A DNA stretch of 64,000 bases from Jannaschia aquimarina (GTDB taxonomy: Bacteria; Pseudomonadota; Alphaproteobacteria; Rhodobacterales; Rhodobacteraceae). Below are positions 8,851-50,740 of this stretch, in pieces. The number at the start of each line of letters is the position of its first letter. Position 1 is the first letter of the stretch. Location: NCBI RefSeq assembly GCF_000877395.1, contig NZ_JYFE01000048.1:1-64000 (forward strand), read 5' to 3'. Below the pieces are notes generated by a model. That model was not told where the DNA came from. It did not search any database and saw only the letters and a list, made by a program, of their open reading frames with translations. The position numbers and the translations under genes were made by a program.

Positions 8851-8910
8851 GAGTTACGTGCCTTTTCGGGGTTATATGCCATCGGATGCGCAGGACTTGC
8901 GTGCCATTGG
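8851..8910 (+). repeat. Left-end transposase-binding-like repeats
   Basis: Three direct copies face inward: GAGTTACGTGCCTTTTCG at 8851, a weaker TATATGCCATCGG near 8873, and GACTTGCGTGCCATTGG at 8894. The last matches the reverse complement of the right-end repeat at 50531 in 15 of 16 positions. Spacing of about 20-23 bp is like the TnsB sites of Tn7-like ends. Confidence 0.7.
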
Positions 8911-8952
8911 ACGGTCTTGGCAGGTTTTCAGCAGGTGCCGCAGCAAGCTGCG

Positions 8953-9889
8953 TGACCGCCCCCCCTCGGGTGGTCCGGATTAGATGTTAGGACAACATCG
9001 CCTCCTACGCCGTGGTTGGCGGGAGGCGCAGCGGAGCCGGACGGCGACCATGGCGCAGGTCGGCCCGGCGGGGCGACGGTCTCGGGCGCCGGGGGTCGAT
9101 ACCCGAGCGCCGAGTGCGGGCGCACGGTGTTGTAGTGTCGGCGCCATGCGCCGATCAGCACGCGGGCCTCGGCGAGGGCGTAGAAGACCTCCCGATCCAG
9201 CAACTCGTCGCGCAGCTTGCCGTTGAAGCTCTCGTTGTATCCGTTCTCCCCTGGGCTTCCGGGTTCGATGAAGGCCGTCTTCACGCCAAGGCGGCCGAGC
9301 CATTCGCGCACCGCCGTGGCCGTGAACTCGGGGCCGTTATCGGACCTGATGTGTTCGGGCGGGCCGCGCTCGACGAATAGGTCCGCCAGCACCGCCAGGA
9401 CGTCGTCGGAGTTCAGCCGCCACGCGACGGGAAGTGCGAGGCACTCGCGGGTGTACTCATCGATCACCGTCAGCATCCTGATCCGTCGACCGTCATGCGT
9501 GCGATCCTGAACGAAGTCGCAGGACCAGACATGGTTCGGCCGCTCGGACCGAAGATGCATACATGAGCCGTCCGCGAGCCAGAGCCGCCCTCGCTTCGGC
9601 TTGCAGGCCGGGACCTTCAGGCCCTCGGCGCGCCAGATCCGCTCCACGCGCTTGCGGTTCACATGCCAGCCGGCGGCGCGCCGCAGCGCGGCCACGCGCC
9701 GATAGCCGTAGCGCCCATACTGGCTCGCCAGCGCGATGATGTCCGCCGTCAGCGCTTCCTCGTCGTCCCGGCCCCGCGGCGCCTTCCTCTGAGTGGATCG
9801 GTGCTAGCGCAGCACGCGACAGGCGCGCCGCTTGGACACGCCTACCGTTTTGCGCACGCGCTCGATCGCCAGCCGTCGGCGCGCGGGGC
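8953..9889 (-). pseudogene. IS3-family orfB (copy 1), broken by amber stop
   Basis: This is the DDE integrase-like half of the IS3 transposase. [18 protein letters not shown] and the SFNGKLRDE region supply the rve-domain aspartates and glutamate. A TAG at 9804-9806 replaces the CAG (Gln) codon found at the same place in the second copy (RVVRQHRS there, RVLR-stop-HRS here). The 3' end also runs through the terminal repeat instead of stopping inside the element. Confidence 0.82.
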
Positions 9890-10168
9890 TCAATAGTTTC
9901 CCCGCGCCGCCTCCGTCAGGATCACCTTATCCAGCGTGAGATCGCTGACCGCCCGGCGCAGCCGCTGGTTCTCACGCTCGAGTGCCTTGAGCCGCCGCAC
10001 CTGATCAACCTTCATGCCACCATACTCGCGCCGCCAACGATAGTAAGTCTGCTCAGTCACGCTGATCGCATTGGCCGCCTCGGCCGTCGTTGCACCCTTC
10101 GCCATCAGTACCTCCGCCTCGCGAAGCTTACCGATAATCTCTTCGGGTCCATGCCCCTTCTTGCCCAT
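9890..10168 (-). CDS. IS3-family OrfA (copy 1)
   Basis: The 92-residue helix-turn-helix subunit of the IS3 transposase appears intact. The HTH covers about residues 8-50 (EEIIGKLREAE ... [17 protein letters not shown]), and the leucine-zipper-like [18 protein letters not shown] follows. Normally programmed frameshifting joins it to OrfB, but the OrfB of this copy is interrupted. Confidence 0.88.
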   Translation of the reverse strand: MGKKGHGPEEIIGKLREAEVLMAKGATTAEAANAISVTEQTYYRWRREYGGMKVDQVRRLKALERENQRLRRAVSDLTLDKVILTEAARGNY

Positions 10169-10231
10169 GATCCGCTCCTTCCAGGTCCAATCCGAACATA
10201 GTCAGCGGACCACTCAGAAGGGGGGAGGCCA

Positions 10232-10689
10232 AAGTCATGAAGCGGGCTTGGAACGATGAGGCGGAGACGTTCATGCAGAGCTACGGCGGCAGCCATGTCG
10301 ATGCGAGCCTGCTCTTGCTACCGCTCTCTACGGATACCTGCCGGCCGATCACCCTCGCATGGACGGCACCTTGGCGGCGATCGAGGATCGCCTCGACGTC
10401 GACGGGCGGCTGCTTTGGTATGAGGAAGGAGGAAGCCGGCGACGGCTTCGAAGTAGGACAGGGCGCGTTCCTCCTCTGCTCGTTCTGGCACGTGGAAGTA
10501 CTCGCGATGCGCGGGGAAACGGACCGCGCCATCGCCATCTTCGATCGGCTCCTGAGCCTTCGCAATGACCTTGGGCTGCTCGCCGAAGAATACGATCCGA
10601 GGGACGGACGACAGCTGGGGAACGTCCCACAGGCGTTCTCGCATGTCGGCATCGTCGGTGCGGCGGTCGCGCTTTCAAAGGACTGGTGA
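10232..10689 (+). pseudogene. GH15-family glucoamylase/trehalase-like 3' remnant
   Basis: The C-terminal part of a glycoside hydrolase family 15 protein is recognisable: WNDEAETFMQSYGG, DASLLLLPL, then in another frame YGYLPADHPRMDGTLAAIE and DRLDVDGRLLWYEE, then back in the first frame VGQGAFLLCSFWHVE and GLLAEEYDPRDGRQLGN. Two compensating frameshifts lie near 10330 and 10430. The 5' part is missing, cut off at the IS boundary. A strong terminator still follows. Confidence 0.8.
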
Positions 10690-10718
10690 CTGCTGGTAGC
10701 GCGCAGAGGCACACGAGG

Positions 10719-10756
10719 AAAAGGGGGAGCGGTGCATGGCACCGCTCCCCCTTTTC
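10719..10756 (+). terminator. Rho-independent terminator after the GH15 remnant
   Basis: A 17-bp perfect inverted repeat (AAAAGGGGGAGCGGTGC with its complement) has a 3-nt ATG loop and ends in TTTTC. It terminates the former GH15 gene and, being symmetrical, could also act on the minus strand. Confidence 0.85.
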
Positions 10757-10910
10757 TGCTCGTCCTCGCCCGCTTTTCAGCGAGACGCTCTTACAATCAG
10801 CAACCTGGCTTGCGCATCGCAGACCTACCTTCCATCAAGTTGACGTTCGTCTAAAACTACCAGAACCCGTTGCAGGGTTCCATGCAACGTAAAACTCGTT
10901 CGAAGCTTGT

Positions 10911-12824
10911 CTATCCGCGGAGTGTCGCCTCAGCGTCTTCGAGCATTTCCTCGACGACACGGCCGCCATGTACGGTCACGAATCGAATTTTGTCCCTCAT
11001 AATCATAGACTTGACCAGTTTCGCGGCGTCCTGCGCACGCTCTACTTCCTCGAAGAGTTCAAGGTGCGCTGCTCTCAGCGTGTCTGCCCAGATAGGCATT
11101 TCCGTTCCCTTCTTGAAGACTTCCTCCGCTAGCAAGTCGCAGTACCCGCGGAGCACTGACGTATCGATACCGTCCTTCGCCAGAACGGCGAGGTCGCCTC
11201 CCGCACGCAGGAAGCACAAGGAATACTCCAACAGATTGTTGACCGTATGAAGGCGATCATCTGTCGGTTCGTGGGAAGCAGCGTCCTCAAACTCCCGTGA
11301 AGGAGCAACCTTCCGATCCAAAAGAGGCTTCGTCGTACGTAGTGCCTTGAGGTAGTACTCTCGTTGCTCCGACCGGACGCTTTCCTCTGCACCCAGAGGG
11401 GCCTCCCTCAGTCGCAAATTCTCTGCCAGTTCCCAATACGCGAGACCGAGCTGACGCGGAATTCGAACTCTGAGGAAATGATCATCCTCAAGTTCTCCTT
11501 GAGGATGATTATCCAAGTTTCGGACAGCTTCCTTGAGCTTGATAACGGCGAGGTCTTCCTGACTTCCCTGCGCCATCATGACATTGGCCATCCGGTAACC
11601 GAGGATCGCATCATAACGATATGCCGGGTCTTGAGATAGCTGGCCATAGAGCTTGAGGGATAGCGCCATTTGCTCGGCTACATACGTCTCATCGTAGGCG
11701 GTATCATGAAGGCCACTGGCGACACGGCCTGCCCAATAATAAGCCAGCGCCGCTTCCATCATCAGGTAATACCGGCAATACGCCACAGCCTCACGGGAGA
11801 GCCCCTCTTCTGCCTTCACTGCTTTGACCAAGTCCAGAAGCTCAGTCCCGATCGCCGTGAACTCTGCCGGCAGCCCAGCTTTCGCCTCTACTCCCCCTTT
11901 GAAGAAGCTCGTAAAAGCTATCCGGATTTGATCAGCTACAGCACCCACCCTTTTCTGAAGCTGCCCCCTGAGTGGAAGCTGACTCAGTGTCTCAAGATGT
12001 ACCGTTCCGGCAGAAACGTGCGTGGTCGATGACAGGCCAGCCGGATCTGCACGCATCATTTCTTGGCGAATGTCGTCGGCGATTGTCCCACATTCGTCAA
12101 GAAGCCGCTTGAGGCTTCCTAGACGCTTCGACGCGCTCTGAAAGTGTTCCCATTCCCTACTGCCCTTATCTGCGAGGTCGGCCTTGTATCGCAAGGAATG
12201 ATCGATCTCGCCCCACACATCCTCCATGGAAGTACGTATCTGCACTTCCATGGGTATACGCCGATCATGGCGACTGTTGATCGGGTTTCGACACCAAACG
12301 ACGATGTGGATTGACGAGTACTCGGTTTCCTTGCGCTCGACCTCCACCCCCAACACGTCCGATTCGGCTTTGACTGGCACGCCTTTCGTGTTGAATTGAT
12401 CGATGATCATCGAGACGATCGGATCGTCCTCCTTTGCAGATGTATATATCTTGATCTCTTCGATCGCATCTTCAAGAACTGTTCCCGGAAAAATGGATAA
12501 CTCCTGCATTTGCCCGGCTTCTATGAACTTTAGGAAGCGCGCGACCAGCAGGGGTAATTCAGCCTTATATAGCGTCAGCAAGCGGAGGCCTACGATGTCG
12601 CGGACATCGCCGGGGCCATAGTCAGGACGCTTGCTTCGTCGATCCATCACCTTTCTCGCAAGGCTTCGATGATCCTTTACCCGACACTTCGTGAGGTAAG
12701 CGGTCCCATCAATGCTCCGATCACCCATGATGAGCCCAGCAAGCACGCGATGCCTGACCTCCGCCGCGCCCGCCAAAGCGTTAACGCAGTCGAGTTCGAG
12801 CTTCATTTCGATGTCGCTGGTCAT
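10911..12824 (-). CDS. RelA/SpoT-domain protein with long helical C-terminus
   Basis: Residues about 20-215 form a RelA/SpoT nucleotide pyrophosphotransferase-like domain: GPGDVRDIVGLRLL (71-83), EYSSIHIVVW (169-178) and MEVQIRTSMEDVWGEIDHS (192-210) are family motifs. There is no HD hydrolase domain. The remaining 420 residues look helical and repeat-like and match nothing I recognise, unlike housekeeping Rel with TGS and ACT domains. In such a setting small or fused alarmone synthetases often act as toxins or phage sensors; that role is inference here. GC is lower than in the core genes. Confidence 0.75.
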   Translation of the reverse strand: MTSDIEMKLELDCVNALAGAAEVRHRVLAGLIMGDRSIDGTAYLTKCRVKDHRSLARKVMDRRSKRPDYGPGDVRDIVGLRLLTLYKAELPLLVARFLKFIEAGQMQELSIFPGTVLEDAIEEIKIYTSAKEDDPIVSMIIDQFNTKGVPVKAESDVLGVEVERKETEYSSIHIVVWCRNPINSRHDRRIPMEVQIRTSMEDVWGEIDHSLRYKADLADKGSREWEHFQSASKRLGSLKRLLDECGTIADDIRQEMMRADPAGLSSTTHVSAGTVHLETLSQLPLRGQLQKRVGAVADQIRIAFTSFFKGGVEAKAGLPAEFTAIGTELLDLVKAVKAEEGLSREAVAYCRYYLMMEAALAYYWAGRVASGLHDTAYDETYVAEQMALSLKLYGQLSQDPAYRYDAILGYRMANVMMAQGSQEDLAVIKLKEAVRNLDNHPQGELEDDHFLRVRIPRQLGLAYWELAENLRLREAPLGAEESVRSEQREYYLKALRTTKPLLDRKVAPSREFEDAASHEPTDDRLHTVNNLLEYSLCFLRAGGDLAVLAKDGIDTSVLRGYCDLLAEEVFKKGTEMPIWADTLRAAHLELFEEVERAQDAAKLVKSMIMRDKIRFVTVHGGRVVEEMLEDAEATLRG

Positions 12825-15958: not shown

Positions 15959-15969
15959 CACAGCAACCC

Positions 15970-16440: not shown

Positions 16441-16444
16441 CCGC

Positions 16445-17353: not shown

Positions 17354-19213
17354 CTAGCGGACCTTCATCCCACTGGTTCGTCTGCCTAAGCCATCGGCCG
17401 AGTCCCCACGCAGCCAGATGCCGTCGTAGGCCACATCTTCTACCTGAAAGCTGGGAAAACCGCGGTTCTTCATCTCGGCGGCCGCAACCTTCGTCGGCAC
17501 GCCCCTCTCCTCCGCCAGTGTCTTCGCCGTCACGAACCGCTCGTGGAACGCAGCCGCATCCTCCGCCGTGATGCACCGCCTCAAGCTCCGCGTCGCGATG
17601 TTCATCAGAGTCGTCGACGGCGTGTGCCCATCCTCGACAAGCCGCGCGAAGGACCCCGCCCGGCTCAGCCCAACCCGTTTCTGGAACGCAGCCACCGTCA
17701 TTGCCCCGTCGTCCGTTTCCCAATCCTCCGGGAGGATACGTGCGACGTCCGCCTCTCTCACCATGATCGACGGATAACCTTCCTCCCTGGCCAATCGTGC
17801 CGTGGCGAGCCGACCGGATCGGACGGCCTCGAGAATGTAGCGCACACCTCCCGCTATCTTCGGCGCGGCCTTCTGGAGACCGATCCAGCCATCCGCTCGC
17901 TCGATGGTCGACGCATCCGCTGGCAGGAGGGAGGCGAGGAACCCGTTTGCGTCCGCACGCCGCCACGGGCGCTTGATCGACGGGTTCGCCACGAACGGCT
18001 CGAACAATCCTAGGTCGGCAAGGCTACGGAACTGATCGCGCGAGATCCCGAGACGCTTCGCCATCTCCTTCTCGCCCACGAGCGTCAGCACCTCTTCAAG
18101 CAGAGGCTTCCAGCGCTCCGCGTCGAACGTCAAGACGGCGTCGGGCCGAGTGTCGTCCGCCGGGATCGCCCCCCTCTCCACCAGGATGGGCCGGAGCGTA
18201 GCCGTCTTCAGCCCGACCTCGGCGGCGGCGGTTCGGACGGAGTGGCACCGACGCACCTGAATAACCTCTCCTAGCACGCGTTCGCCGGGCGCGATCGGCC
18301 AGTGCCTGAGGATAACGCTGCGTAGACGATCCCGCATCGGGTCGAACGCTTCGTCGTCCGCGAGATCGCCGTCGAGGCGGGTGTAGAGCCGTCCGAAGGT
18401 CTTCTTCGCTCCGTCCTGCGGGTCCGCGCGCCGACGGAGAAGCTTGTGGAGCGCCGCGTTCAGACCGGCGTCTCCGTCGCGCAGCACCCGGAAGCCCCGC
18501 TCCAGCGCGGCGTGCAACCTGCCGGTCTCATCGTCACCTGCCTCTCCGTCGACGTTCAGTTCCTCGCCGAGAAGCTGACAGAGTTCTGCGGCCGCATAGA
18601 GCGAAGGTTGTCCAAGGGCGGGCCCTACCATGGGGTGGGCGAGCCGGTCATCGAGCCAAAGATCGAAGTCGGTCGGGGTTCGATCCAGTCCGTCCAGCAC
18701 CCCGGCCGTGAGGTCCGCTTCGATCTCACGGAGGTGCGGCAACTGATCGAAGCGGCGAGTCGGCTGACGCTCTCGCCAAAGCGGAGCGAGGTCCACGCCG
18801 TGCCGGATGCAGACGTGAACGTAGCGTAGCTGCCAATGGCCGCGCATGACCATCGCGGCGACGCCGCCGACTTCCGAGCGAAGCGCGTCCTCTCGCAGGC
18901 AGGCGGGGCATCCCCGGACCTCGGGATTGCGCAGCGCCCGGGTGACGAAGATCTCATCCCGGAAGCGCATACGGACATCGCCGATTGCGACGCCGGACCA
19001 GGAAAGGAGTTCATCTACGTCGGCTGGGGAGATCCGAGCGACCTCGGCAAGCCGTTCCACCGACCCGTCCTCACCGCTCAATGTCCCCCGCACCGGCAGC
19101 CCCATCTCTTCGAGGAACGTCGGAAGGTCTATCAGGTGATAAGCCGCCACACGGGAGAGGAAGGAGGGCAGCGTTTCGCGCGCGGCCGGGGTCGGGTGTT
19201 CTTCGGGCGGCAT
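17354..19213 (-). CDS. tniQ: TniQ/TnsD-like transposon target-selection protein
   Basis: The N-terminal TniQ domain is clear: ETLPSFLSRVAAYHLIDLP, then a zinc-binding set with GCPACLRED and HVCIRHG, and RGHWQLRYVHVC typical of the family. At 619 residues it is longer than minimal TniQ and in the range of TnsD, with several helix-turn-helix-like blocks in the C-terminal half (for example EMAKRLGISRDQFRSLADLG). In Tn7 the TnsD protein binds a chromosomal attachment site; here tRNA-Arg, next to the left end, is the obvious candidate. That targeting role is inferred. Confidence 0.85.
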   Translation of the reverse strand: MPPEEHPTPAARETLPSFLSRVAAYHLIDLPTFLEEMGLPVRGTLSGEDGSVERLAEVARISPADVDELLSWSGVAIGDVRMRFRDEIFVTRALRNPEVRGCPACLREDALRSEVGGVAAMVMRGHWQLRYVHVCIRHGVDLAPLWRERQPTRRFDQLPHLREIEADLTAGVLDGLDRTPTDFDLWLDDRLAHPMVGPALGQPSLYAAAELCQLLGEELNVDGEAGDDETGRLHAALERGFRVLRDGDAGLNAALHKLLRRRADPQDGAKKTFGRLYTRLDGDLADDEAFDPMRDRLRSVILRHWPIAPGERVLGEVIQVRRCHSVRTAAAEVGLKTATLRPILVERGAIPADDTRPDAVLTFDAERWKPLLEEVLTLVGEKEMAKRLGISRDQFRSLADLGLFEPFVANPSIKRPWRRADANGFLASLLPADASTIERADGWIGLQKAAPKIAGGVRYILEAVRSGRLATARLAREEGYPSIMVREADVARILPEDWETDDGAMTVAAFQKRVGLSRAGSFARLVEDGHTPSTTLMNIATRSLRRCITAEDAAAFHERFVTAKTLAEERGVPTKVAAAEMKNRGFPSFQVEDVAYDGIWLRGDSADGLGRRTSGMKVR

Positions 19214-20265: not shown

Positions 20266-20700
20266 GTGGCGGCGGACGACGAAGTAGAGACGGAGAGCGG
20301 CGCTCGATTGGTCCCGGCCGGTAAGCGACCTCAGGCCAACGACCTCGCAACGATCCTGGACGGTCGCTACGTCACCTGGCTGACGGCTAACGCCACCTGG
20401 ACGGACTTAATCCGAGACGAGGACGCCATCGGCACGGTCGAGTACGGCGAGGTCACGGCCAACCTGCGCAAAGCACGCGATGCTGCGTCCAGGACCCCGC
20501 CCCGTTGCACGGATGACCTAGCCGCACTCCTTCACATTTGGTGGGACGAGTATGGCCTTTACTTGCGCGACGACGACCTCGACCTCCCGGACGAAGCCCA
20601 CGATCCGGCGCCGCTCTTCATCGCTCGGATGTGGAGGGCCGCGACAGGGCTGGACGGCTGGCCCCGCCAGATCGTCGGCACGCCTGAAGGTTCCCCTTGA
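20266..20700 (+). CDS. Hypothetical acidic protein, first gene of metallophosphoesterase operon
   Basis: The 144-residue protein starts with GTG, preceded by AGGGGGCGG. It is strongly acidic, with LHIWWDEYGLYLRDDDLDLP and no known motif. Its stop overlaps the start of the metallophosphoesterase gene by 4 bp, so the two are translationally coupled. It may be a partner or regulator of that enzyme; nothing in its sequence says more. Confidence 0.65.
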   Translation: MAADDEVETESGARLVPAGKRPQANDLATILDGRYVTWLTANATWTDLIRDEDAIGTVEYGEVTANLRKARDAASRTPPRCTDDLAALLHIWWDEYGLYLRDDDLDLPDEAHDPAPLFIARMWRAATGLDGWPRQIVGTPEGSP

Positions 20701-21521
20701 CCGCCCTCCGCCTCCTCGTCCTCGCCGACCTTCACATCGACAAATGGCTCGTTCACCGTCGTGATCCGCTCGACCACCTCATCCCCGAGGATTGGGCGTC
20801 CGTCGATCTCTGCGTCCTCGCCGGCGACCTGACCGATGAAGCGCCGAAGCGATGGCCCCGGGCCTTCGATTGGCTGGGCAAGCGGATCGCCCTCGGGCGG
20901 GTGCACGTGTTCGAAGGCAACCACGACTACTACGAGACGGCCTTCGACGATGGCGGGCGGCATGCCGAGATTGCCGCCGCCCAAGGCGCGAACTATGCCC
21001 AGATGGGCCGGATCGTCCTGGGACGGCACCGGTTCCTCTGCTGCACGCTCTGGACCGACTTCGCCCTGACCGACGACCGTCCCCGCGCGATGGCCGACGC
21101 GCAGGCGTGGATGAACGATTACGGCAGCATCCGGGTGGCGCGGGCGGGGTATCGCCGCCTCCGCCCCGCGGATAAGGCCCGGCGGAACGCGGAGCACCGT
21201 GGCTGGCTCGATCGCGAGCTGGCCGAGCCGTTCGACGGCGAAACCACCGTGGTGACGCACCACGCGCCGCATCCCGGCGCCCTGCTCGATCCGCAGGCCG
21301 ACGTCGCCCCGGCCTACGCGTCCGACCTCACGAAGATGATCGAGCGGCACCGCCCCGCGCGTTGGATCCACGGACATACGCACGTCTACCACGAGACCAC
21401 CGTCGGCGGCACGGAGATCATCTGCGCGAGCGTCGGCTACCCTTGGCAGCGGTCCCGGGGCGAGACGGAGATCGTCCCTCGGGTGATCGAACTGCCTGAC
21501 CCGGCCGGCGGCACCGCATGA
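20697..21521 (+). CDS. Calcineurin-like metallophosphoesterase
   Basis: All metal-binding motifs of the superfamily are present: DLH (D11, H13), GD (43-44), GNHD (74-77), a THHAPHPG block near 190 and GHTH near 225. The 274-residue protein could be a phosphatase, a nuclease or a cyclic-nucleotide phosphodiesterase. It begins with TTG overlapping the preceding stop and is itself overlapped 4 bp by the next gene, forming a three-gene operon. The substrate is unknown; a defence role is only suggested by context. Confidence 0.85.
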   Translation: MTALRLLVLADLHIDKWLVHRRDPLDHLIPEDWASVDLCVLAGDLTDEAPKRWPRAFDWLGKRIALGRVHVFEGNHDYYETAFDDGGRHAEIAAAQGANYAQMGRIVLGRHRFLCCTLWTDFALTDDRPRAMADAQAWMNDYGSIRVARAGYRRLRPADKARRNAEHRGWLDRELAEPFDGETTVVTHHAPHPGALLDPQADVAPAYASDLTKMIERHRPARWIHGHTHVYHETTVGGTEIICASVGYPWQRSRGETEIVPRVIELPDPAGGTA

Positions 21522-36352: not shown

Positions 36353-36542
36353 CAACAGGCATCCCAATGTTCCAATTTCGTTCCATCATCTGGCTGGCTT
36401 ACTAGGGAGTCAATGAGGTCTCGAGATATAAACTACGCTCATAACCCTACTGAGAGGCTCGGAAGTCAGACTACGCAGGTTCTTGCAATCGCACTCTGGC
36501 TACCGTTCGATCGACACATCGTAACAATGACAGGCACCTGGA

Positions 36543-40915: not shown

Positions 40916-40971
40916 GGTCATAGTGTGCGGTGAGGCGTGACCGGCCCCCATCAGGTGGTCCGGTTCTAATG

Positions 40972-41890
40972 TTAGAGCATGGGGGCCTCCTGCGCCACGG
41001 CTGACGGGAGGCGGAGCGCAGCGGAGCCGGACGGCAGCCGTGGCGCTCTCGTCCAGTTGGGGGCGATGGCCTCCGGTGCGGGCGGCCGGTATCCAAGGGC
41101 GCTATGTGGGCGGACGGTGTTGTAGTGCACCCGCCAGGCTTCGATCAGGACGCGGGCTTCCGCGAGGCTGTAGAAGATCTCCCGGTCCAGCAGCTCGTCG
41201 CGCAGCTTGCCGTTGAAGGATTCGTTGTAGCCATTCTCCCACGGGCTGCCCGGCTCGATGAAGGCGGTCCTCACGCCAAGGCAGCCGAGCCAGTTCCTAA
41301 CGCCGTTCGCCGTGAACTCGGGCCCGTTGTCCGAGCGGATTTGCTCGGGCGGACCACGCTCGGCGAAGAGGTCCGCGAGCGTTGCCAGGACGTCGTCCGA
41401 TCGCAGCTGACGGGCGACGGGGAGCGCCAGGCACTCGCGGGTGTACTCGTCGATGACGGTCAGCATCCTGATCGCCCCGCCGCCGTGCGTCTTGTCGGCG
41501 ACGAAGTCGTAGCTCCAGATGTGGTTCGATCGGTCGGGCCGCAGGCGGATGCACGATCCGTCCGCGAGCCAAAGCCTGCCCCGCTTCGGCTGGCGTTGCG
41601 GCACCTTCAGTCCTTCTGCCCGCCAGATGCGTTCGACGCGCTTCAGGTTCACCCGCCAGCCGGCACGACGCAGCAGCGCCGTGATCCGCCTGTAGCCGTA
41701 GCGCCCGTACCGGCTCGCCAGTTCCACGATGTCCGCCGTGAGCGCCCCCTCGTCGTCCCGGCCCCGCGGCACCTTGCGCTGCGTCGATCGGTGCTGGCGG
41801 ACCACCCGGCACGCCCGCCGCTCGGAGACGCCGAGTACACCCTGGACGTGATCGATCGCAGCGCGCCGGCGCGCGGGGCTCAGAACTTTC
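40972..41890 (-). CDS. IS3-family OrfB transposase (copy 2)
   Basis: The DDE half of the transposase is intact here: [12 protein letters not shown] near the start, [12 protein letters not shown] where copy 1 has its stop, [23 protein letters not shown] and [12 protein letters not shown]. The protein begins by frameshift from orfA rather than by its own clear start, so the 5' limit is approximate. It ends inside the element before the terminal repeat. Confidence 0.85.
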
Positions 41891-42115
41891 CCCGCCCCAC
41901 CTCTTCCAAGATCATCTTGTCCAGCGTCAGGTCCGACACCGCCCGCCGAAGCCGCTGGTTCTCCCGCTCGAGCGCCTTCAGCCGCTTCGCTTGATCCACT
42001 TTCATGCCGCCGTACTCTCGGCGCCACCGGTAGTAGGTCTGCTCCGTCACACCGATCGCCTTCGCCGCCTGCGGTGTCGTCTGACCCCGCGCGATCAAGA
42101 CCTCTGCCCGTCCGG
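41880..42115 (-). pseudogene. IS3-family OrfA (copy 2), 5' deleted
   Basis: The orfA frame reads PPSEWSG, from the terminal repeat, directly into [20 protein letters not shown]. The first 17 codons present in copy 1 (MGKKGHGPEEIIGK...) and the leader are missing. The HTH and the coiled-coil [13 protein letters not shown] remain. Any translation would start in flanking host DNA. Confidence 0.8.
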
Positions 42116-42138
42116 ACCACTCAGAAGGGGGCAGGCCA

Positions 42139-42846: not shown

Positions 42847-43368
42847 ATGGCTGTCCAAGCATATAGCATGCCGGTCGCGGCGCCTGAAGTGCTGCCTACA
42901 AGGAATATCGAAGAGTACGTCTACGCCGACGGGCATCGTTTCGACGCATCCATGCTTTTGGAGGAACTCTCCGAGGAACTGATCCAGGACCTCGAAGTGC
43001 TGACGCAGTTCGATGATGAGCCTGAGTTCCGCGGCGATCCCGCGATCGCGATCTTCACCGAGGAGGCGGATCGGGCCTGGCGGTCCTCGCTCGCGCTCGT
43101 CGATGAGATCTGCGGCCTTCGCAGGGGCCTCGCTCCGGAGGACGAGGTCCTTGTCGCGGCCGCGCGTGACGTCGGTCGGCTTCTCCGCTCCGAGACGCCG
43201 TGCGAATTGGACACTGCGTCCATGATGATCTGCGCCAAGGCGGCGGGCCTCGACGGGGTCCCGGACGGCGCGCGTTCCGTCGTGCTGATCAAGCAGTGTG
43301 CCGACATCGTTGCCCGGCTCGCGCAATGTTGGTCAGCCGGGGAGGCTGTCGCCCTCGAGATGGCGTAA
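42847..43368 (+). CDS. Hypothetical acidic protein upstream of the AAA+ protease
   Basis: The 173-residue protein starts at an ATG preceded by GGGAGA. It is acidic and mostly helical (MLLEELSEELIQDLEVLTQF; a second half with VLIKQCADIVARLAQCW). No family is recognised. It lies about 120 bp before the FtsH-like gene on the same strand and may be a substrate or adaptor of that protease. Confidence 0.62.
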   Translation: MAVQAYSMPVAAPEVLPTRNIEEYVYADGHRFDASMLLEELSEELIQDLEVLTQFDDEPEFRGDPAIAIFTEEADRAWRSSLALVDEICGLRRGLAPEDEVLVAAARDVGRLLRSETPCELDTASMMICAKAAGLDGVPDGARSVVLIKQCADIVARLAQCWSAGEAVALEMA

Positions 43369-43486
43369 CGCTCCGCCCCTGCCGTCGCGCCCGCTGTCCG
43401 CATGGATTGGATGGCGGGCTTTCCTCGATCGCCGCACGCACCCCCTTGCCCACACTTGGTTGAGGTTCGAAGACGTGCGCCCAGTC

Positions 43487-46015
43487 ATGAGCATGCCGTT
43501 GCAGTACGAACCTACCCCGACCGCACCCCCACTCTCCAGCGATAAGGTCCAAGCCGCGCTCATCGCGGACCTTCCCCGCCAGCTCGCCATCCGTGTCCTC
43601 GGCCCGAACCACCTTGCTACCGACCAGCATCTGCTCGGTCCGGACGACTGGTGGCGGTCGGAGGAGGACGAACTCCTCGACGACGACGAACCCGACGCCG
43701 AACAGATGGGAGAGGTCGTCGCGCGGATGACCGAGGCGGACCAAGTCGGCTCGACCGTGGGCCTAGATCTGCCCGTCGATCGCCCAGAGTTGAGCGGCGC
43801 CGACCGGACGAAGGCGTTCCTCGCATGGCAGCTCGGGGCAGCCATTCGCGCCGCCCTCGTGGCCGCACCGAACCTGGACCCGAGGCGGCTCGCCCACGGC
43901 GGGGCGGTCCTCGACCTCCGGGTTGCTACGCATCTCGACCATGGCGATCATGTTCGGGCGGAGACGATCGCGCTCAAGGCGGTCGTAGATATGCTTCGCA
44001 AGCTCCTCGGCGCCCCCGACAGACCCACCGGACGGATCACCTTCGAGAGCGTCCTGGGCCTATCGGACGACGATCCCGGGACCGATCCGCTCACGACCAA
44101 AGCCCGTCCAAAGCGGCGGAGGTCGCCCGCGCCCGGGAACGCACCGGTCGCGCGTCCCGTCGGCGAGTGGGTCGCCCGGGAGAGCCTCGACTATGCCGCG
44201 ATCGGTCACTTCGTCGTCTGTCTCACGGATCGCGACGCGTGCCTGCCGCCAGAGGTGGATGCCGTCCTCGATCTTAAGGCTTCGCTGGAGCCGCTGACAC
44301 GAGAGGACATGACTGGTCTCATCGGGTTGACGCATGGCATTGCAGACCATGCCGCGGAGGCCAACCTGCGGCAACGGCTGCCGTCCGACGCGGACCTTTG
44401 CAGCCTCTCGACCGCAAGCGTCCTCGCGGCCCTCGCGGGACCAACGGCGTCTGCGGTCGCCGAGCGCCTCGCAAAGATGACGGAGATCGCCGAGGAACGG
44501 CGCCCGGTGGCGGGCGACAATGCAGCCGGGGGAGAGGGCAAGTCGCAAGCCACCGGTGGCGAGAGGCCCACCAGTTCGAACCGGCTCACCCTCGCCGACG
44601 TGAAAGGGCAGGACGCCGTCGTCGAGGAGCTGCGCGGCATCGCCGCCGATATGCGCCTGTGGGAAAGCGACACGATTGCCTGGTCGGACCTCGTCAGTTC
44701 CGTGATCCTCCACGGACCGCCTGGGACCGGCAAGACGATGGCCGCCGAGGCGCTGGCCGGCGAACTCGGCGTTCCCTTGATCGACGCATCCGTCGGCACG
44801 GCGCAATCGAAGGGGCCGCTGAGTTCGGTACTGGCGGCCTTCGAGGCGGCCGTCACCAAGGCGGAGGCATCCGCGCCCTGTGTCCTGCTCATGGACGAGC
44901 TGGATTCGTTGATGCCGCGCGACAACGAGCGCGACAACGGCTACATGCGCCTCCTCGTGAATGCCGTCCTCGAGGCCCTGACGCGTATCCAGTCGATGGA
45001 GGGCGTGATCCTCGTCGGAGCGACGAACGACCTGCGGATGATCGACCCGGCGATCCGGCGGAGCGGGCGGTTCGATTTGAAGCTGCGGATGGCGAACCCG
45101 GACCTCACGGGAATCCGCGCGATCGTCCGGGCGGAACTCGGCGACGCGGCTGACCCGAGAGATGCACCGGCATTGAACGCCGCGCTCGTCAACCTGATCG
45201 GCCGGTCTGGCGCGGACGCGGCGATGGTCGCCCGTAGAGCGAAAGGCCTCGCCCGACGAGGGGCCTCCGAGAGGGGCGAAGCTGTCCGTATCACCGTCCC
45301 AGACCTCGCGGTGGCCGTCGCGGATATCGCACCCCCTTTGGACCTGGACGACCTCCGCCGGATCGCGATCCATGAGGCCGGGCATGCCCTCGTCGGCGCG
45401 GCCTGTGGGCTGGGGTTGCCCCGCGCCGTCCGCGTCGCGGGCGAAGGCGGCGTTGCGGCGTTCCCGCCCCGCGCTCTTCGCACGTCCGCGGTTCTCCGGG
45501 TGCAGATCCTGACCACCCTCGCTGGACGCGAAGCCGAGCGGCTCGTCTTCGGCGACGTATCGACGGGTGCGGCGAGCGACCTCGCCACCGCGACGATGAT
45601 CGTCTTGGAGGCGGAACGCCAGTGCGGAATGGGGAGTGAAGGCATCGCGTGGGAGCCCCTTCCCGCCGCGGGGACGCCGCTTTCAGAAGCGGAGCGCCGC
45701 TTCGTCAACGAGCGGCTCGAACCCCTCTCCCGCGAGGTCGCGGGGTTGCTCGCTCATCATCGTGCGACGCTTCTCGCAATCGCCGACCGGCTCGTCGCCG
45801 ACCGCGACCTCGATACGGCCACCATTGAGGCCCTTCTCGCCTCGCTTGCGAAAAATCATTTGCCAGAACCAGATGGGAGCCTCTATGCAAGCGGCGAATC
45901 ACGAGGTGACCACGATGATACGAGCCAGAACCAGGACCCGTCCGACCGACGCCTGACGACGCCCGTATCACGTGCGCGGCAGGCGCACCCTCCTTCAGAG
46001 GCACCCCTGCCATGA
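43487..46015 (+). CDS. FtsH-like AAA+ ATPase with M41 metalloprotease domain
   Basis: The 842-residue protein has an unrecognised N-terminal 350 residues, an AAA+ domain with GPPGTGKT near 409, LLMDELDSLMPR near 466, and RRSGRFDLKLRM (arginine fingers), then a zinc-protease HEAGH at about 629. Unlike housekeeping FtsH there are no obvious N-terminal transmembrane helices, so it is probably soluble. A GTG 12 bp upstream is an alternative start. It lies just before the transposase operon and may be cargo or an accessory factor. Confidence 0.85.
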   Translation: MSMPLQYEPTPTAPPLSSDKVQAALIADLPRQLAIRVLGPNHLATDQHLLGPDDWWRSEEDELLDDDEPDAEQMGEVVARMTEADQVGSTVGLDLPVDRPELSGADRTKAFLAWQLGAAIRAALVAAPNLDPRRLAHGGAVLDLRVATHLDHGDHVRAETIALKAVVDMLRKLLGAPDRPTGRITFESVLGLSDDDPGTDPLTTKARPKRRRSPAPGNAPVARPVGEWVARESLDYAAIGHFVVCLTDRDACLPPEVDAVLDLKASLEPLTREDMTGLIGLTHGIADHAAEANLRQRLPSDADLCSLSTASVLAALAGPTASAVAERLAKMTEIAEERRPVAGDNAAGGEGKSQATGGERPTSSNRLTLADVKGQDAVVEELRGIAADMRLWESDTIAWSDLVSSVILHGPPGTGKTMAAEALAGELGVPLIDASVGTAQSKGPLSSVLAAFEAAVTKAEASAPCVLLMDELDSLMPRDNERDNGYMRLLVNAVLEALTRIQSMEGVILVGATNDLRMIDPAIRRSGRFDLKLRMANPDLTGIRAIVRAELGDAADPRDAPALNAALVNLIGRSGADAAMVARRAKGLARRGASERGEAVRITVPDLAVAVADIAPPLDLDDLRRIAIHEAGHALVGAACGLGLPRAVRVAGEGGVAAFPPRALRTSAVLRVQILTTLAGREAERLVFGDVSTGAASDLATATMIVLEAERQCGMGSEGIAWEPLPAAGTPLSEAERRFVNERLEPLSREVAGLLAHHRATLLAIADRLVADRDLDTATIEALLASLAKNHLPEPDGSLYASGESRGDHDDTSQNQDPSDRRLTTPVSRARQAHPPSEAPLP

Positions 46016-46438
46016 TCTATCTCCTCCCCAAGGGCGCTGCCTGCGGCAGCCTGCCCTCCGATCTTCTCAGTCCGATATCCGGCCTTCCGCCTCGCCACCG
46101 GTGTGCGCGGGTCCGAGATCGGTCCGGTCGTCTTCACGCCTGACCCGTAGATCGCGTCCTCGCGCATGCCCGTCTCTCCTTCGAGATCGGGATATCGCAA
46201 CCCATGTTCTTCCATGCCCTGACGGGTGAGGCCGCGCCTCGCCCGAACCTAGTTCTGTCCCCGACGGGTCCCCGCGCGCGCCGAATAGCCGGCGGGCCGG
46301 CAGGCGACGACTAACCGTCCGCACCTGACCGATTCCGTCCGTTCGCCCACGGGCCCGACATGCCTCCGCTCATCCGAATGACCGGGCGAGCGGCATGGCC
46401 GCGCTGTGCGCGGCGTCCAGAACCATGAGGACGAACCC
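46016..46438. other. Intergenic region before the transposase operon
   Basis: About 420 bp between the AAA+ protease gene and the TnsA-like gene. It presumably holds the operon's promoter. I find no convincing gene; reading frames on both strands up to 110 codons lack recognisable features. Confidence 0.4.
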
Positions 46439-47110
46439 ATGTCCCTCCATTCCGCCCCGGGAGCCGTCCGGCTGCCCGAACCCAGCCTTGCGCACCGCAG
46501 CTTCTCACCGCGCAGCAAGGGCCACTGCACTGCGGACGTCGTCATCGACGGACGCCGCCTGCACCTCGAAAGCCATACCGAACTGATGGCGCTTCTCTGC
46601 CTGTGGGCCTCGCCGGGCGTCGTCGCCGTGCGCGAGCAGCAGCTCTACGAATGGTTCGACCACGACGGCGTCGTGCACGAGCACTTCTTCGACCTCGTCG
46701 CGGACTTCGCGGACGGGACGACCGTGGCCTATGCGGTCCGCCCCGTCGCACGGCTGAGCCTCCGCTACCGGAAGGAGATGGAGATTATCCGCCAGCAGGC
46801 GATCGCGGAGGGCGCGTTCGACGACGTGCGCTTCCTAACGGAGCGGTCGTTCGACGCCGCCACGCGCCACAATGCGGCGCTGCTCCAAGGCTCGCGGCAT
46901 CCCGACCCGGACGTCGACGCCGCGGCCCGCGACGTCGTGCGCGGGATGTCCGGCACCGCGACGATCGGCGACCTCCGCGGACGCATCGGCCGCGGCGGAG
47001 CGGGCTTCCGCGCCGTCGTCCGGCTCGTCGGCGCGGGTGTCCTCGCGCCGCTGCGTCACGAGCGCCTCACCTCCTCCACCCTCCTCTTGAAGAAGGACCA
47101 CTTCCAATGA
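46439..47110 (+). CDS. TnsA-like protein of the Tn7-like transposon
   Basis: The 223-residue protein has a TnsA-like N-terminal half: LESHTELMALLCLWASPGVV, REQQLYEWF, HFFDLVADFADG, YAVRPVA. In active TnsA the matching positions are an acidic residue, a PDF aspartate and EVK. Here Asp85 is kept, but the Lys is Arg101. The C-terminal part looks like winged-helix DNA binding. The start is the ATG with GAGGA 8 bp upstream. Its stop overlaps the transposase start by 4 bp. Endonuclease activity is doubtful. Confidence 0.68.
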   Translation: MSLHSAPGAVRLPEPSLAHRSFSPRSKGHCTADVVIDGRRLHLESHTELMALLCLWASPGVVAVREQQLYEWFDHDGVVHEHFFDLVADFADGTTVAYAVRPVARLSLRYRKEMEIIRQQAIAEGAFDDVRFLTERSFDAATRHNAALLQGSRHPDPDVDAAARDVVRGMSGTATIGDLRGRIGRGGAGFRAVVRLVGAGVLAPLRHERLTSSTLLLKKDHFQ

Positions 47111-49353
47111 CCGTCCATGTCACCGCCACCCCCGCCGCCTTCGACACCACCCGTATGCGGGTCGGACCCTACGACCGCCTCTTGTCGGGGACCGTCGGCT
47201 ACCGCCTCATGCAGGATTATGGCGACGCGATCCTTTGCCATATCGACGACGGCACCGACCGCGCCGTGCAGTTCACCCAGGTTCAGTTGCGAAGCATGGT
47301 CGCGCGCGGCGAACTTCATATCGACCGCGATTGGTATCACCCCCACCGCGATGCGAAAGTCGAGGAGGAGGACCACCTGCTCCTCGACAAGCTGTCGCCG
47401 CGTGAGCAGGCGATCCTCGCATGGCGGTCCGCGCTGACGGACGCCGTCGAGGACCTCGTGCGTGAGGGCAAGCTGAAGCTCACCGATGACGACATCGCCG
47501 CGAACATGGACATGATCATCGGCCGCGCGCAGACGATGATGGGGCCGCACGCTGACCGACGTCGTGAACATCCCGTGCGGGCTCTCGACGAGAACAATCG
47601 TCCTGCGCCCGGAACGCTGCGGAAGTGGGTGTCCAAGCGCCGCAAGCGAGGCCTCGTCGGCATCTGCCCGGCGTTCGGCAACCGCGGCGGCCCCGGCATG
47701 CCGTTGAACCCCCAGATCCAGAAGATCATGTGGCAGGAGATCCAAGGCTACCTCGTGTTGAACGGTCCGTCGAAGACTGTGATCTGGCAGCGGGTCGCGC
47801 GCCGCGTCGACAAGTTGAATAAGCAGCGCGCCGTCGCAGGCCTCGAAATGCTCAAGCGTCCGAGCCGTACGACGGTGTCGAACGCCATCGGCAAGCTCGA
47901 CGCCTTCCAAGTGATGGTCGCCCGCGAGGGGGAGGAGCGAGCGCGGAAGGAGTTCCGCCCGGTCCTCGAGGGCATCCGCGCGGAGCGTCCGCTCGAGATC
48001 GTCATGATGGACACCCATACGCTCGATCTCTGGACGCTGATCGAGGAGAACAACTGGCACGACAAGCTGTCACCCGAGCTTCTGAAGACGATCCGGAAGA
48101 ACAAGGGCAAGCACCGCTTCAAGCTCACCTTCGCGATCTGCGCGGCGACCCGGGTGATCGTCGGGATGACCGTCTCTTTGTCGGAGAACACGCCAGCGGC
48201 GCTGCACACTCTTGCAATGGTGCTGTCGGACAAGGGCGTCTGGGCGGACTGCGTCGGCGCGCTGCGACCTTGGAACATGTACGGCCGGCCCGAGGAGGTC
48301 CTGACCGATGCCGGCAGCGCGTTCACGTCGGAGATCTTTCGGCATGCCTGCTTGGACTTGGGCATCGCTCCGCGGCGTGCGATGGCCGGGAAGCCCGAGA
48401 TGCGGGGCATCGGCGAGCGGATCTTCCGGACGGTCAACACGGGCCTCTGCGCCCGGCTGGCGGGCAACACGTTCCACGAGCTGGTCTCGCAAGATCAGCC
48501 CGACGACCTGCCGACAGGCTTCAAGACGGCCGCCCTGACGATCGAGGACCTCGTCTTCGCGATCGTCCGGTGGGTGGTGGACGTGTACCACCACTCCCCG
48601 CACGAGGGTTTGCTCGGGGCGACGCCCGCCGATGAGTGGCGTCGCCGGGTCGCCGAGTACGGAGTCATGCCGCCCCCGGACCGGGCCCGCATGCGCATGG
48701 CCTTCGGGACGCGCATCCGGCGAACGCTGTCCAAGGCGGGCGTGACCGTCCTCGGCGTCCGCTACCACTCCGCCCAACTGGCCGCGCACATGCACAAGCA
48801 CGGTCGTCGCAAGGTGGATGTGCGCTGGCACCCGTCCGACATCGGCATGGTCGCCGTGCGCACGGAAGCGGGCTGGATCGACGTGCCCTCCGTGCAGCCC
48901 GAGTTCGAGGGCAGGCGCGCCGATACGTGGCTGACGGCCGCCAAGCACGTGCGCCCCGGACGGGCCAAGGCCAAGGAGATCGACCTCCGCGTCGCACTCG
49001 AAGCCCTGGAGGCGATCGAGGCCCCCTCGAACGACGCGCGGCTGACCGCCGGGATCACGGTCGATCCGTGGGACGAGGGACGACTGGCAAGCGCGGAGTC
49101 GCGGGTCTTCGCCGGCGTGACCTGGCGGGAGACTGGCAGCGCCGTCGAGGACCGTCCCTGCGACGGGTTCATCGGCGAGGCCATCGGCGACCCCATCGAC
49201 CCGCCCCGGCTACCCGATGCCGTCGAGGTCGCGCCGACGGCTCCGGCACCGGTGGCCGCACCGACGCCCGGCACCGCACCGGAGACCGAGCCCACCGAGC
49301 CCACGCGCGCGACCCGGCGCGACGGCAGTACCCTGCGCATCGAGGAGGACTGA
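47107..49353 (+). CDS. tniA: Mu/TniA/TnsB-type DDE transposase
   Basis: The 748-residue protein carries the retroviral-integrase catalytic triad Asp302 (MMDTHTLD), Asp401 (LTDAGSAF) and Glu437 (GIGERIFR), a DD-35-E arrangement, followed by a Mu-type beta-barrel C-terminus (MHKHGRRKVDVRWHPSDIG). It joins transposon ends to target DNA. A Pro/Ala-rich tail (APVAAPTPGTAPETEP) may bind the AAA+ partner. It overlaps the TnsA-like gene by ATGA and is 2 bp from tniB. Confidence 0.93.
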   Translation: MTVHVTATPAAFDTTRMRVGPYDRLLSGTVGYRLMQDYGDAILCHIDDGTDRAVQFTQVQLRSMVARGELHIDRDWYHPHRDAKVEEEDHLLLDKLSPREQAILAWRSALTDAVEDLVREGKLKLTDDDIAANMDMIIGRAQTMMGPHADRRREHPVRALDENNRPAPGTLRKWVSKRRKRGLVGICPAFGNRGGPGMPLNPQIQKIMWQEIQGYLVLNGPSKTVIWQRVARRVDKLNKQRAVAGLEMLKRPSRTTVSNAIGKLDAFQVMVAREGEERARKEFRPVLEGIRAERPLEIVMMDTHTLDLWTLIEENNWHDKLSPELLKTIRKNKGKHRFKLTFAICAATRVIVGMTVSLSENTPAALHTLAMVLSDKGVWADCVGALRPWNMYGRPEEVLTDAGSAFTSEIFRHACLDLGIAPRRAMAGKPEMRGIGERIFRTVNTGLCARLAGNTFHELVSQDQPDDLPTGFKTAALTIEDLVFAIVRWVVDVYHHSPHEGLLGATPADEWRRRVAEYGVMPPPDRARMRMAFGTRIRRTLSKAGVTVLGVRYHSAQLAAHMHKHGRRKVDVRWHPSDIGMVAVRTEAGWIDVPSVQPEFEGRRADTWLTAAKHVRPGRAKAKEIDLRVALEALEAIEAPSNDARLTAGITVDPWDEGRLASAESRVFAGVTWRETGSAVEDRPCDGFIGEAIGDPIDPPRLPDAVEVAPTAPAPVAAPTPGTAPETEPTEPTRATRRDGSTLRIEED

Positions 49354-49355
49354 TC

Positions 49356-50342
49356 ATGCCCGACCACGTCAGGATCCAGGACGTCATGGACACCATTCGG
49401 CGCCTCCACGTCGGCACCGAGGCGGACGAGGCCCTTCGCGAGCAGATCGATCGGCTGCTGCGCCGCAACGAGGAGGGCGACCTCCTGCCCGAGCCCGTGC
49501 GGGTGGGTCGGACCGCCGAGACGCGCGGCATCCTCTTCGTGGATGCCGCGGGGGCCGGGAAGACCACCGCCGTCTCCCGCGCGCTCGAGAAGCACCCCGC
49601 CTTGGGTGGCGCGGACGGAGAGGCCACCGCGTTCCTTGCAGCGACGGTTCCGACGGAGCCGACGCTCAAGGCTATGGCGATCAAGCTCCTGCAAGAAGCA
49701 GACTACCCAAACCGATCTAGTGGCGCGAAGCTGGAACGGACTCGCCGGACATCCTTCCAGCTGTTCGATCATCTGCGCGAGCTGATGGACCGGAACGGGC
49801 AGATCGTCCTCTGGATCGACGAGGCACACGACCTGATGGCCCGCGATCCTGAGCAGATCCTGCGCGCGGTGAAGTCGCTGATGCAGGACGACAAGTCTGT
49901 CATCGTGATCCTGTCTGGGACCGAGCGGTTGGGCGAATTGATCCGGTCGGACCCGCAGGTTCAGCGACGCTTCACCATCGTCGCGCCCGATCCGCTGAGC
50001 GTGGCTACGGACCGGGAACGGCTGCTCGACATCCTCGACCACTACTGCGAGCGCACAAGCCTCGGTCGGATCGAGGACGAGACGGTCGTACCCCGTCTCC
50101 TCGTCGCTGCACGCGACCGGTTCGGCCGGGCCATCGAGATGATGCAGGGCGCGGTCGAGCAGGCGATGATGGAAGAGGCCGACACTCTCGACCTTTGGCA
50201 CTTCGCGCTCGCGTGGGGGATGAGGGAAGGCACCGACCGGGAGACCAATCCGTTCGTCGTCGATGATTGGGCGCGGATCGATCCGGATGCCCAGCCGGAG
50301 GAACCCGTGGTCAAGAAGAAGCGGACGCGGCGAAAGAAGTAG
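49356..50342 (+). CDS. tniB: TniB/TnsC-type AAA+ transposition regulator
   Basis: The 328-residue ATPase has Walker A DAAGAGKTT (63-71), Walker B VLWIDEAHDLM near 150, and a sensor region VILSGTERLGEL. Such proteins pass the target signal from TniQ to the transposase. The C-terminus is basic (KKKRTRRKK). GAGGAGG precedes the ATG, 2 bp after the tniA stop. A strong terminator follows. Confidence 0.92.
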   Translation: MPDHVRIQDVMDTIRRLHVGTEADEALREQIDRLLRRNEEGDLLPEPVRVGRTAETRGILFVDAAGAGKTTAVSRALEKHPALGGADGEATAFLAATVPTEPTLKAMAIKLLQEADYPNRSSGAKLERTRRTSFQLFDHLRELMDRNGQIVLWIDEAHDLMARDPEQILRAVKSLMQDDKSVIVILSGTERLGELIRSDPQVQRRFTIVAPDPLSVATDRERLLDILDHYCERTSLGRIEDETVVPRLLVAARDRFGRAIEMMQGAVEQAMMEEADTLDLWHFALAWGMREGTDRETNPFVVDDWARIDPDAQPEEPVVKKKRTRRKK

Positions 50343-50372
50343 CTACTGCCTTCAACAACATCTCAAGTCTCG

Positions 50373-50406
50373 GAAGCGCTCGGCCTATGGCCGGGCGCTT
50401 CTTCTT
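50373..50406 (+). terminator. Terminator of the transposase operon
   Basis: GAAGCGCTCGGCC and GGCCGGGCGCTTC form a 13-bp stem (one T-G pair) around TAT, followed by TTCTTT. It lies 30 bp after tniB, just inside the transposon's right end. Confidence 0.88.
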
Positions 50407-50435
50407 TACGACGGGCTGGGTCCATGTTGGCCGCC

Positions 50436-50550
50436 GATGGCACGGAAGTCCTGTGCACGATGGCACGGAGGGTGGCGCGGTCGAAAACGAGGCTCTGATT
50501 TCATTGAGTTTTATGGGGCGTCCGGCGAGTCAATGGCACGGAAGTCTTAC
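50436..50550 (-). repeat. Right-end transposase-binding-like repeats
   Basis: Three copies of ATGGCACGGA occur at 50437 (GATGGCACGGAAGTCC), 50459 (GATGGCACGGAGGGTG) and 50531 (CAATGGCACGGAAGTCTT). They are inverse to the left-end copies. The rightmost probably marks the outer edge; ACA at 50556-50558 could be the terminal trinucleotide of a TGT...ACA element. Confidence 0.7.
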
Positions 50551-50740
50551 GTTCTACAGCTTGGTCTGCGGCGGGACTGACGTCTGAGCGGGGCGCTCGC
50601 GGGGCTGGATGGATCGTTCAGCGGACGGTCGAAGCGTTGAGCGTGCGGACCCCATGCGGCACAGCCGGGCACATTCGGGGGGCGGAGGAATAGGACGCGC
50701 ATGTGCGGTATTGCTGGGTGAGCGCCGGTCCCGCAGGGCG

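Follow-up and report, generated by a model that had tools for sequence, protein, structure and literature searches.

A probable Tn7-like transposon with a TnsD-type selector beside tRNA-Arg(CCT) in Jannaschia aquimarina, and its relatives at tRNA genes

Tn7 has closely spaced sites in its right end and spread sites in its left end, and its operon reads away from the target gene. In type I-B2 and I-D CRISPR-associated transposons (CASTs) and related elements, a TniQ/TnsD protein directs insertion at tRNA genes, according to the accessible parts of PMC11406308 and PMC10293859. Defence genes and other mobile elements have already been described as cargo of Tn7-like elements (accessible part of PMC8649781). 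In this paper we describe a stretch of 64,000 nucleotides from Jannaschia aquimarina (contig C48, positions 1-64000, from a genome of 4.1 Mb assembled into 81 contigs), referred to as the window. We conclude that its region from 8.84 to 50.56 kb is probably one Tn7-like transposon with protein-guided homing to tRNA-Arg. The original prediction placed such a transposon next to tRNA-Arg(CCT) and took the conflict genes for its cargo, which is borne out by the parts, the ends and the cargo matches.

Ends and transposition genes

Both ends of the element carry several predicted TnsB-type sites in mutually inverted orientation, as expected for Tn7-like elements. GACTTSCGTGCCATNG has one exact copy at the left edge and two exact inverted copies at the right edge. 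The 14-base core GACTTSCGTGCCAT is exact at three sites in the whole 4.1-Mb genome, all of them at the element's edges, which agrees with the earlier claim that these inverted repeats occur only there. With one mismatch GACTTSCGTGCCAT has three matches elsewhere in the genome against two for a backwards-pattern control, and with up to three mismatches GACTTSCGTGCCATNG has 12 matches in the window against 4.5 expected by chance, a number attained in 1 of 100 shuffles. Caution is advisable with plain inverted-repeat scans, as this GC-rich stretch yields 66 pairs and the element ends are outside the 25 longest. The first left repeat begins about 24 bp beyond the tRNA 3' end, as had been predicted. 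The left terminus may be anywhere in 8836-8845 (9-18 bp past the tRNA), with its exact base unfixed, and would read TAT instead of TGT if placed at 8839; the right edge is sharp, with ACA at 50558. The bases flanking the element are CGTAT or TCACG on the left and GCTTG on the right, and do not form the 5-bp duplication of Tn7-like elements.

The genes tniQ, tnsA, tnsB and tnsC are uninterrupted open reading frames (Table 1). The four components named in the original prediction, TniQ, a TnsA-like protein, a DD35E transposase and TniB, were all recovered by Pfam matches, a TnsA profile and the catalytic residues of TnsB. TniQ, the TniQ/TnsD target selector within the element, has CxxC and CxxH zinc-finger motifs. 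Its AlphaFold2 model has a pLDDT of 86.1 and a pTM of 0.68 and was built on a 49-row alignment; 20 of 68 named TniQ loci (described below), short or with early stops, were excluded from the alignment for model and tree. From a reading of its secondary structure, the predicted fold appears to combine a TniQ core with a row of helix-turn-helix units. The top Foldseek matches of the model are a PseCAST QCascade chain (E 9.5e-6) and TniQ 6v9p (E 3.1e-5). QCascade/TniQ entries range from E 9.5e-6 to 9.8e-4 with a query TM-score of about 0.26, and MerR- and Xis-type domains match only at E >0.1. Unlike this fold search, a sequence search of TniQ against the PDB found no credible relative. The matches to QCascade/TniQ entries would fit TniQ as a TnsD-type DNA reader.

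A Pfam search with TnsA gave no match. Its identity is based on a profile of 15 sequences, which matches Tn7 TnsA (1F1Z) at E 5.2e-6, together with the NCBIfam match below cut-off. E59 and D96 are invariant across the 15 sequences. At the aligned position that we take to be the catalytic lysine of Tn7 TnsA, arginine is found in the window and in five of 16 relatives (L134-L138), and lysine in the other 11. Because these five also have tnsB and tnsC matches adjacent, the arginine is likely an old trait and not fresh decay. In TnsB the catalytic residues are one aspartate each in MMDTHT and TDAGSAF and, 35 residues past the second of them, a glutamate. PDB entries of TnsB match it with a best E of 7.4e-23, in line with the DDE and Mu C-terminal domains of Tn7-like transposases. 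The distal end lies within about 95 bp past tnsC, and no second tniQ is found there. The same genome contains a second, distant TnsB-like transposase with 29% identity (L014, G000:C63:9695-10954).

A TniQ lineage beside tRNA genes

The window TniQ is matched in 83 of 394 genomes of the window's family at E 1e-10, far relatives included. TniQ also has matches in 12 plasmid records at E 1e-20, and TnsB in 18 at E 1e-40. When 20 loci around high-ranking TniQ matches were fetched, a tRNA 3' end faced the tniQ stop in 12 of them, in 11 at a distance of at most 365 bp. A second, named set of 68 TniQ loci was taken from GTDB genomes, judged by their titles largely Rhodobacteraceae sensu lato; omission of eight loci with less than 600 bp behind tniQ left 60 usable ones. 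The two sets overlap (G110, G258 and G236 are in both). In 32 of the 60 named loci a tRNA is found within 700 bp behind tniQ, always with its 3' end facing the tniQ stop, and the upstream-of-tniQ control has a tRNA in none of the 60. These tRNAs are predominantly tRNA-Arg (28 of 32, namely 22 Arg(TCT) and 6 Arg(CCT)), the others being two Gln(TTG), one Trp(CCA) and one Met(CAT). On the TniQ tree (49 rows) the kind of tRNA changes at least six times. The window TniQ forms a long branch with weak support, and we therefore make no claim from its position.

In 18 of the 32 loci a TGCCAA-like terminus, searched with a listed set of variants in which one letter may differ, begins 1-17 bp (median 13 bp) past the tRNA; the other 14 show no such terminus. 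While 18 of the 32 tRNA-side ends align well, 14 seemingly belong to another type, several to the GTTCGACA type, and were excluded from the end alignment and profile. Inverted ends sought by best 22-mer in 30 named islands and two longer ones were no better than a direct-orientation control. Beyond tniQ the neighbours mostly differ, and few proteins are common to two to four loci.

The region right of tRNA-Arg(CCT) can be regarded as a hotspot, since relatives share little there. No protein is common to more than three of 20 relatives' loci, except one family (L054, L062), in a comparison that listed only wider sharing, not that by two or three loci, and in which L053 and L063 are short. Among these 20 loci we found no clean empty site for the window's element. 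The other side of the tRNA is more constant, with a LacI gene upstream in 19 of 20 loci taken from relatives. The order in the window is GT-LacI-FkbM-tRNA (5154-8527) and in relatives such as L046, L050 and L057 it is GT-FkbM-LacI-tRNA; judged by gene order, the two genes beside the tRNA are swapped locally.

Two strains of Tritonibacter mobilis illustrate the relation of the end to the tRNA. A3R06 and F1926 have about 2.2 kb of left end and tniQ in common (97.3% in a 2288-column alignment that includes the spacer and the tRNA piece), and outside this block the compared stretches match only in a 205-bp piece of tnsA/B. In A3R06 the common end begins 14 bp past a whole tRNA-Arg(CCT). In F1926 it begins 13 bp past a truncated copy that retains only the 3' 49 bp of the tRNA gene, and the spacer letters differ from those of A3R06. 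The whole tRNA of F1926 is elsewhere, followed by 13 of the 14 A3R06 spacer bases and then by other DNA, and the stretch between it and the 49-bp copy holds phage lysozyme and phage integrase genes. A megaplasmid of Ruegeria TM1040 has the same tRNA together with the flank on its other side, and the DNA that follows the tRNA is different. On the simplest reading of these junctions, the two strains would carry separate insertions at equal distance and the 3' 49 bp would be enough for recognition. The 49-bp piece in F1926 makes target recognition directly testable. F1926 also has a second end with spread sites and tnsC behind (L274, reverse complement 28811), which is direct, not inverted, to the first.

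The separation of tniQ and tnsABC in the window is found again in some relatives. Profiles of TnsA, TnsB and TnsC were run on seven other islands for which longer sequence was available, among them short stretches of G089 and G170. At tRNA-Arg(CCT) in G345 the tnsABC genes are on the far side, about 25 kb from the tRNA, and read away from it. They also read away from tRNA-Arg(CCT) in G305, at about 40 kb, where the contig ends. No tnsABC was found in the scanned stretches of G373, G236, G258, G089 and G170. In G358 the same polarity occurs twice with no tRNA near, in one case with tnsC 9 kb beyond tnsB. Locus L128 of G347 (5820-10842) has tnsABC with an own tniQ, tail to tail with a tniQ of the tRNA lineage about 340 bp apart. 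The split layout is therefore not peculiar to the window, and to judge from gene order a design that puts tniQ near the target and tnsABC near the opposite end recurs without being universal. The original prediction had called the layout unlike Tn7, which holds for a tniQ far from tnsABC on the other strand. It does not hold for the direction of the operon, which reads away from the target as in Tn7, given that the tRNA-side sites are close and the tnsC-side sites spread like those of the Tn7 right and left ends.

Not every relative seems to have its own transposase. No TniB match was found in eight of 21 tniQ genomes tested, seven of which are also without a TnsB match at E 1e-10; these counts are rough because the TnsB query missed the G305 copy found by profile, and the TniB model also matches 10 of 14 control genomes. 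G373 contains an 8.4-kb tniQ element with inverted ends (23/25 matching), GCGCT on both sides as a 5-bp duplication (by eye), an inner IS-type transposase gene and no TnsABC. With this composition, deletion of tnsABC is as likely as mobilisation from elsewhere. Tentatively, the tRNA-side end and tniQ might together form an independent homing module, about 2.2 kb long, which elements exchange. Such a module might, equally tentatively, cooperate with more than one kind of TnsABC machinery, in some cases provided in trans. The suggestion is based on the block common to A3R06 and F1926, which have little else in common, on the two or more kinds of end sequence behind which this TniQ lineage stands, on neighbouring tnsABC genes that score very differently against one profile, and on the seven of 21 genomes without a TnsB or TniB match, G373 included.

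Proposed mechanism, right flank and alternative explanations

We propose that TniQ, with its core and several helix-turn-helix units, would recognise the 3' part of the tRNA gene and recruit TnsC, which would bring in TnsAB bound at the sites of both ends. The element would join about 13 bp behind the tRNA and leave it whole; in relatives the spacing is 13-14 bp. Its tRNA-near end is the one with close sites and the end past tnsC the one with spread sites. After insertion, a chromosomal inversion with one of its breakpoints at the right end, or near it, would have placed lepA beside the element and parted the two halves of any target duplication. The parts, ends, lineage, recurrence and synteny are read directly from the sequences; from these we infer the roles of the proteins, the mobility of the element and the order of events.

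A number of observations weigh against this interpretation. No 5-bp duplication was seen at the window's ends by eye for starts in 8836-8845, the family left-end profile does not detect the window's left end, and the window tniQ is 8.5 kb from the tRNA compared to the usual distance of about 200 bp. In the named set, 28 of the 60 loci have no tRNA within 700 bp, presence or absence of a tRNA changes at least 13 times on the TniQ tree, and TnsB or TnsC is matched in only five of the 68 loci, of which mostly up to 10 kb on each side was covered. The seven scanned islands have tnsABC in cis in two cases only (G345 and G305). Both tniQ and tnsB are interrupted in G345, and its ends were found with no 5-bp duplication seen by eye. 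In F1926 tnsABC is oppositely oriented, beside the end with spread sites, and A3R06 holds only a tnsABC fragment in 50 kb. A simple form of the interpretation, with lepA as the original neighbour, is contradicted by all five relatives in which both genes could be placed, where lepA is 136-856 kb from the tRNA and on the same strand.

These five relatives (G001, G004, G007, G008 and G010, out of 11 same-genus genomes) have tRNA-Arg and lepA on one contig; in the window the two genes are on opposed strands, 44 kb apart. In three of the five (G001, G007 and G008) the lepA 5' side shows synteny with the right flank of the window and with the DNA that continues it (54.7-65.6 kb); in G004 and G010 only lepA matched. 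An M3 peptidase gene is found behind lepA in four of the five (G001, G007, G010 and, cut off but seen, G008), and in the window genome it is on contig C36 with unplaced DNA upstream. As far as synteny tells, the right flank is apparently a distant region in flipped orientation and not the original neighbour. The 5-bp duplication that the original prediction had expected at the junctions is absent, and an inversion with a breakpoint at or near the right end would explain this. A remnant at 50700-51120, which by its translation resembles a REP-associated transposase (RAYT), adjoins the right end; a 50-bp piece of it is also behind lepA in G008.

The right junction might also stem from the element's own replicative, inversion-type transposition, favoured by a poorly cutting TnsA, which would be a variant of the single-transposon interpretation. 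Replicative transposition with TnsA mutated or lost has been published (accessible part of PMC8649781), and the breakpoint at or near the right terminus, the lack of a duplication and the TnsA arginine would be consistent with it. A second copy would then be expected, yet the end motif occurs only once per end, and the RAYT-like repeats at 50.7-51.1 kb offer an alternative breakpoint, which makes this origin quite improbable in our view. The arginine could also be taken as a sign of decay, as could the two IS3 copies inside and the divergent left end with its possible TAT terminus. The ends and tns genes would in that case be immobile remnants of an island, a state compatible with a single Tn7-like transposon and to which we give some, if limited, credence. 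It is at odds with the four uninterrupted genes and with an arginine that is common to five relatives with tnsB and tnsC adjacent and thus an old trait.

Another possibility is that two nested or adjacent elements with site motifs that are alike by kinship are present, the left one a tRNA element that contains tniQ and the right one a separate element that contains TnsABC. The tRNA site is a hotspot for stacking, as in the G013 island, where by eye the left repeats differ in type from the right repeats that accompany a TnsC remnant, and in F1926 the two ends point the same way. In G012, whose partial TnsB is the closest relative (58%), tnsC is followed by a tniQ of its own. We consider two elements unlikely, since in the window genome the motif forms just a single left end and a single right end, and the right end follows tnsC within about 95 bp with no second tniQ. 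A profile search for a second family-type left end near the window's tniQ, or any further such end in the window, gave none that was supported (best E 0.037 at 19372-19400). One transposon with tRNA-Arg homing remains our preferred explanation, and the left repeats and transposase genes were not found to differ in history, a difference that had been named as contrary to the original prediction. As a guide to the ends, the G012 TnsB was rejected; it is the only same-genus candidate, and its partial copy is not close enough.

Cargo and comparison with known systems

Table 1. Location and annotation of the features in the window
Feature	Position	Strand	Remarks
tRNA-Arg(CCT)	8750..8826	+	presumed attachment site; ARAGORN, Rfam
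tRNA-proximal transposon end	8836..8911		closely spaced TnsB-type sites, GTGCC/ATGCC cores at 8858, 8876, 8901
IS3-family element within left end region	8960..10222	-	outer limits approximate; 77% identical DNA to second copy
RelA/SpoT-domain protein, cargo	10911..12824	-	Pfam RelA_SpoT E 6.8e-13
TniQ	17354..19213	-	619 aa, long TnsD-type target selector, reads toward tRNA; Pfam TniQ E 8.6e-20
Metallophosphoesterase, cargo	20697..21521	+	relatives in three other TniQ loci
CdiA C-terminal domain protein, type VI secretion system (T6SS)-type cargo	24158..26098	-	Pfam CdiA_C E 3.5e-15
VgrG-like spike protein, cargo	26111..28219	-	Pfam Phage_GPD E 2e-72
TcmP, candidate defence PDC-M30A, cargo	30743..32200	-	NCBIfam TIGR04474, PADLOC; true start further in
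DUF5131 protein, candidate defence PDC-M41B/M30B, cargo	31959..32771	-	PADLOC
Tle1-like T6SS phospholipase-type effector, cargo	34925..36367	-	Pfam E 2.1e-64
Helicase, candidate defence PDC-S28, cargo	36543..39125	+	PADLOC E 3.4e-108
Second IS3-family element	40952..42130	-	limits approximate
AAA ATPase + M41 peptidase domain	43298..46015	+	upstream of tnsA; relatives near tniQ in L124, L129
TnsA	46406..47110	+	catalytic lysine replaced by arginine; NCBIfam match below cut-off
TnsB, DD35E transposase	47107..49353	+	Pfam Mu-transpos_C; rve match below cut-off
TnsC, TniB family ATPase	49356..50342	+	TniB E 1.1e-15; GAGGAGG precedes ATG 49356
Distal transposon end	50435..50558		spread sites 50435-50450, 50458-50473, 50531-50546, inverse to left sites
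Right flank	50559..54454	-	RAYT-like remnant, SIR2 gene 51112-52521, lepA 52559-54454

Most of the cargo sits between tniQ and tnsA. TcmP together with the DUF5131 protein corresponds to the candidate defence system PDC-M30, and the SIR2 gene (PDC-S25) lies outside the element's right end. The AAA/M41 protein may be more than cargo. A fragment of a glycosyl hydrolase family 15 gene (10237-10689) adjoins the left IS3 copy. No cas family was found among the Pfam matches of 30 window proteins and P0001, with small open reading frames not all scanned; Cas3-type helicase models gave weak matches to one window protein only. No CRISPR-like direct repeats of at least 20 nt within 120 bp were found in the window. 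On these two grounds we rejected an identity as CAST.

Our results point to a set of protein-guided, tRNA-Arg-homing Tn7-like elements that is widespread in Rhodobacteraceae and apparently unreported. We found no publication on tRNA-Arg with TnsD or a Tn7-like transposon, in a search that left out most subscription papers, so that this absence is unproven. In the window's copy the selector lies far from the transposase, and the cargo includes type VI secretion genes along with defence candidates. An element of this selector behind no more than the last 49 bp of a tRNA gene suggests that the selector reads only a short piece of DNA. The group with the lysine-to-arginine change in TnsA raises the question whether such elements still cut both strands, and we do not claim a loss of cutting.

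Among the known systems, Tn7 (TnsABCDE, glmS) is alike in its TnsA (by profile), DDE transposase TnsB, TnsC and long TniQ/TnsD-type selector, and also in the close sites on the target side, the spread sites on the far side and the operon reading away from the target. It differs in its target, which is glmS and not tRNA-Arg. In the window the cargo lies upstream of tnsA, and tniQ is on the opposite strand, toward the end away from tnsABC; no TnsE is among the Pfam matches and no duplication was found. We therefore did not assign the element to Tn7 sensu stricto, considering its tRNA-Arg neighbour and the lack of TnsE among those matches. Assignment to the Tn5053 family was rejected as well, as TnsA is present and no resolvase is among the Pfam matches. 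The type I-B2 and I-D CASTs share insertion at a tRNA gene directed by a TniQ/TnsD protein, as far as the accessible parts of their descriptions go. They differ from the Rhodobacteraceae element at tRNA-Arg, in which no cas family and no CRISPR-like repeat was found. TnsAB is fused in these CASTs (accessible part of PMC11406308), whereas tnsA and tnsB are separate genes here. The type I-F3 CASTs resemble the window in having tnsABC and tniQ in separate operons (accessible part of PMC6360697), but their tniQ is part of the cas operon, whereas the window has a stand-alone long TniQ.

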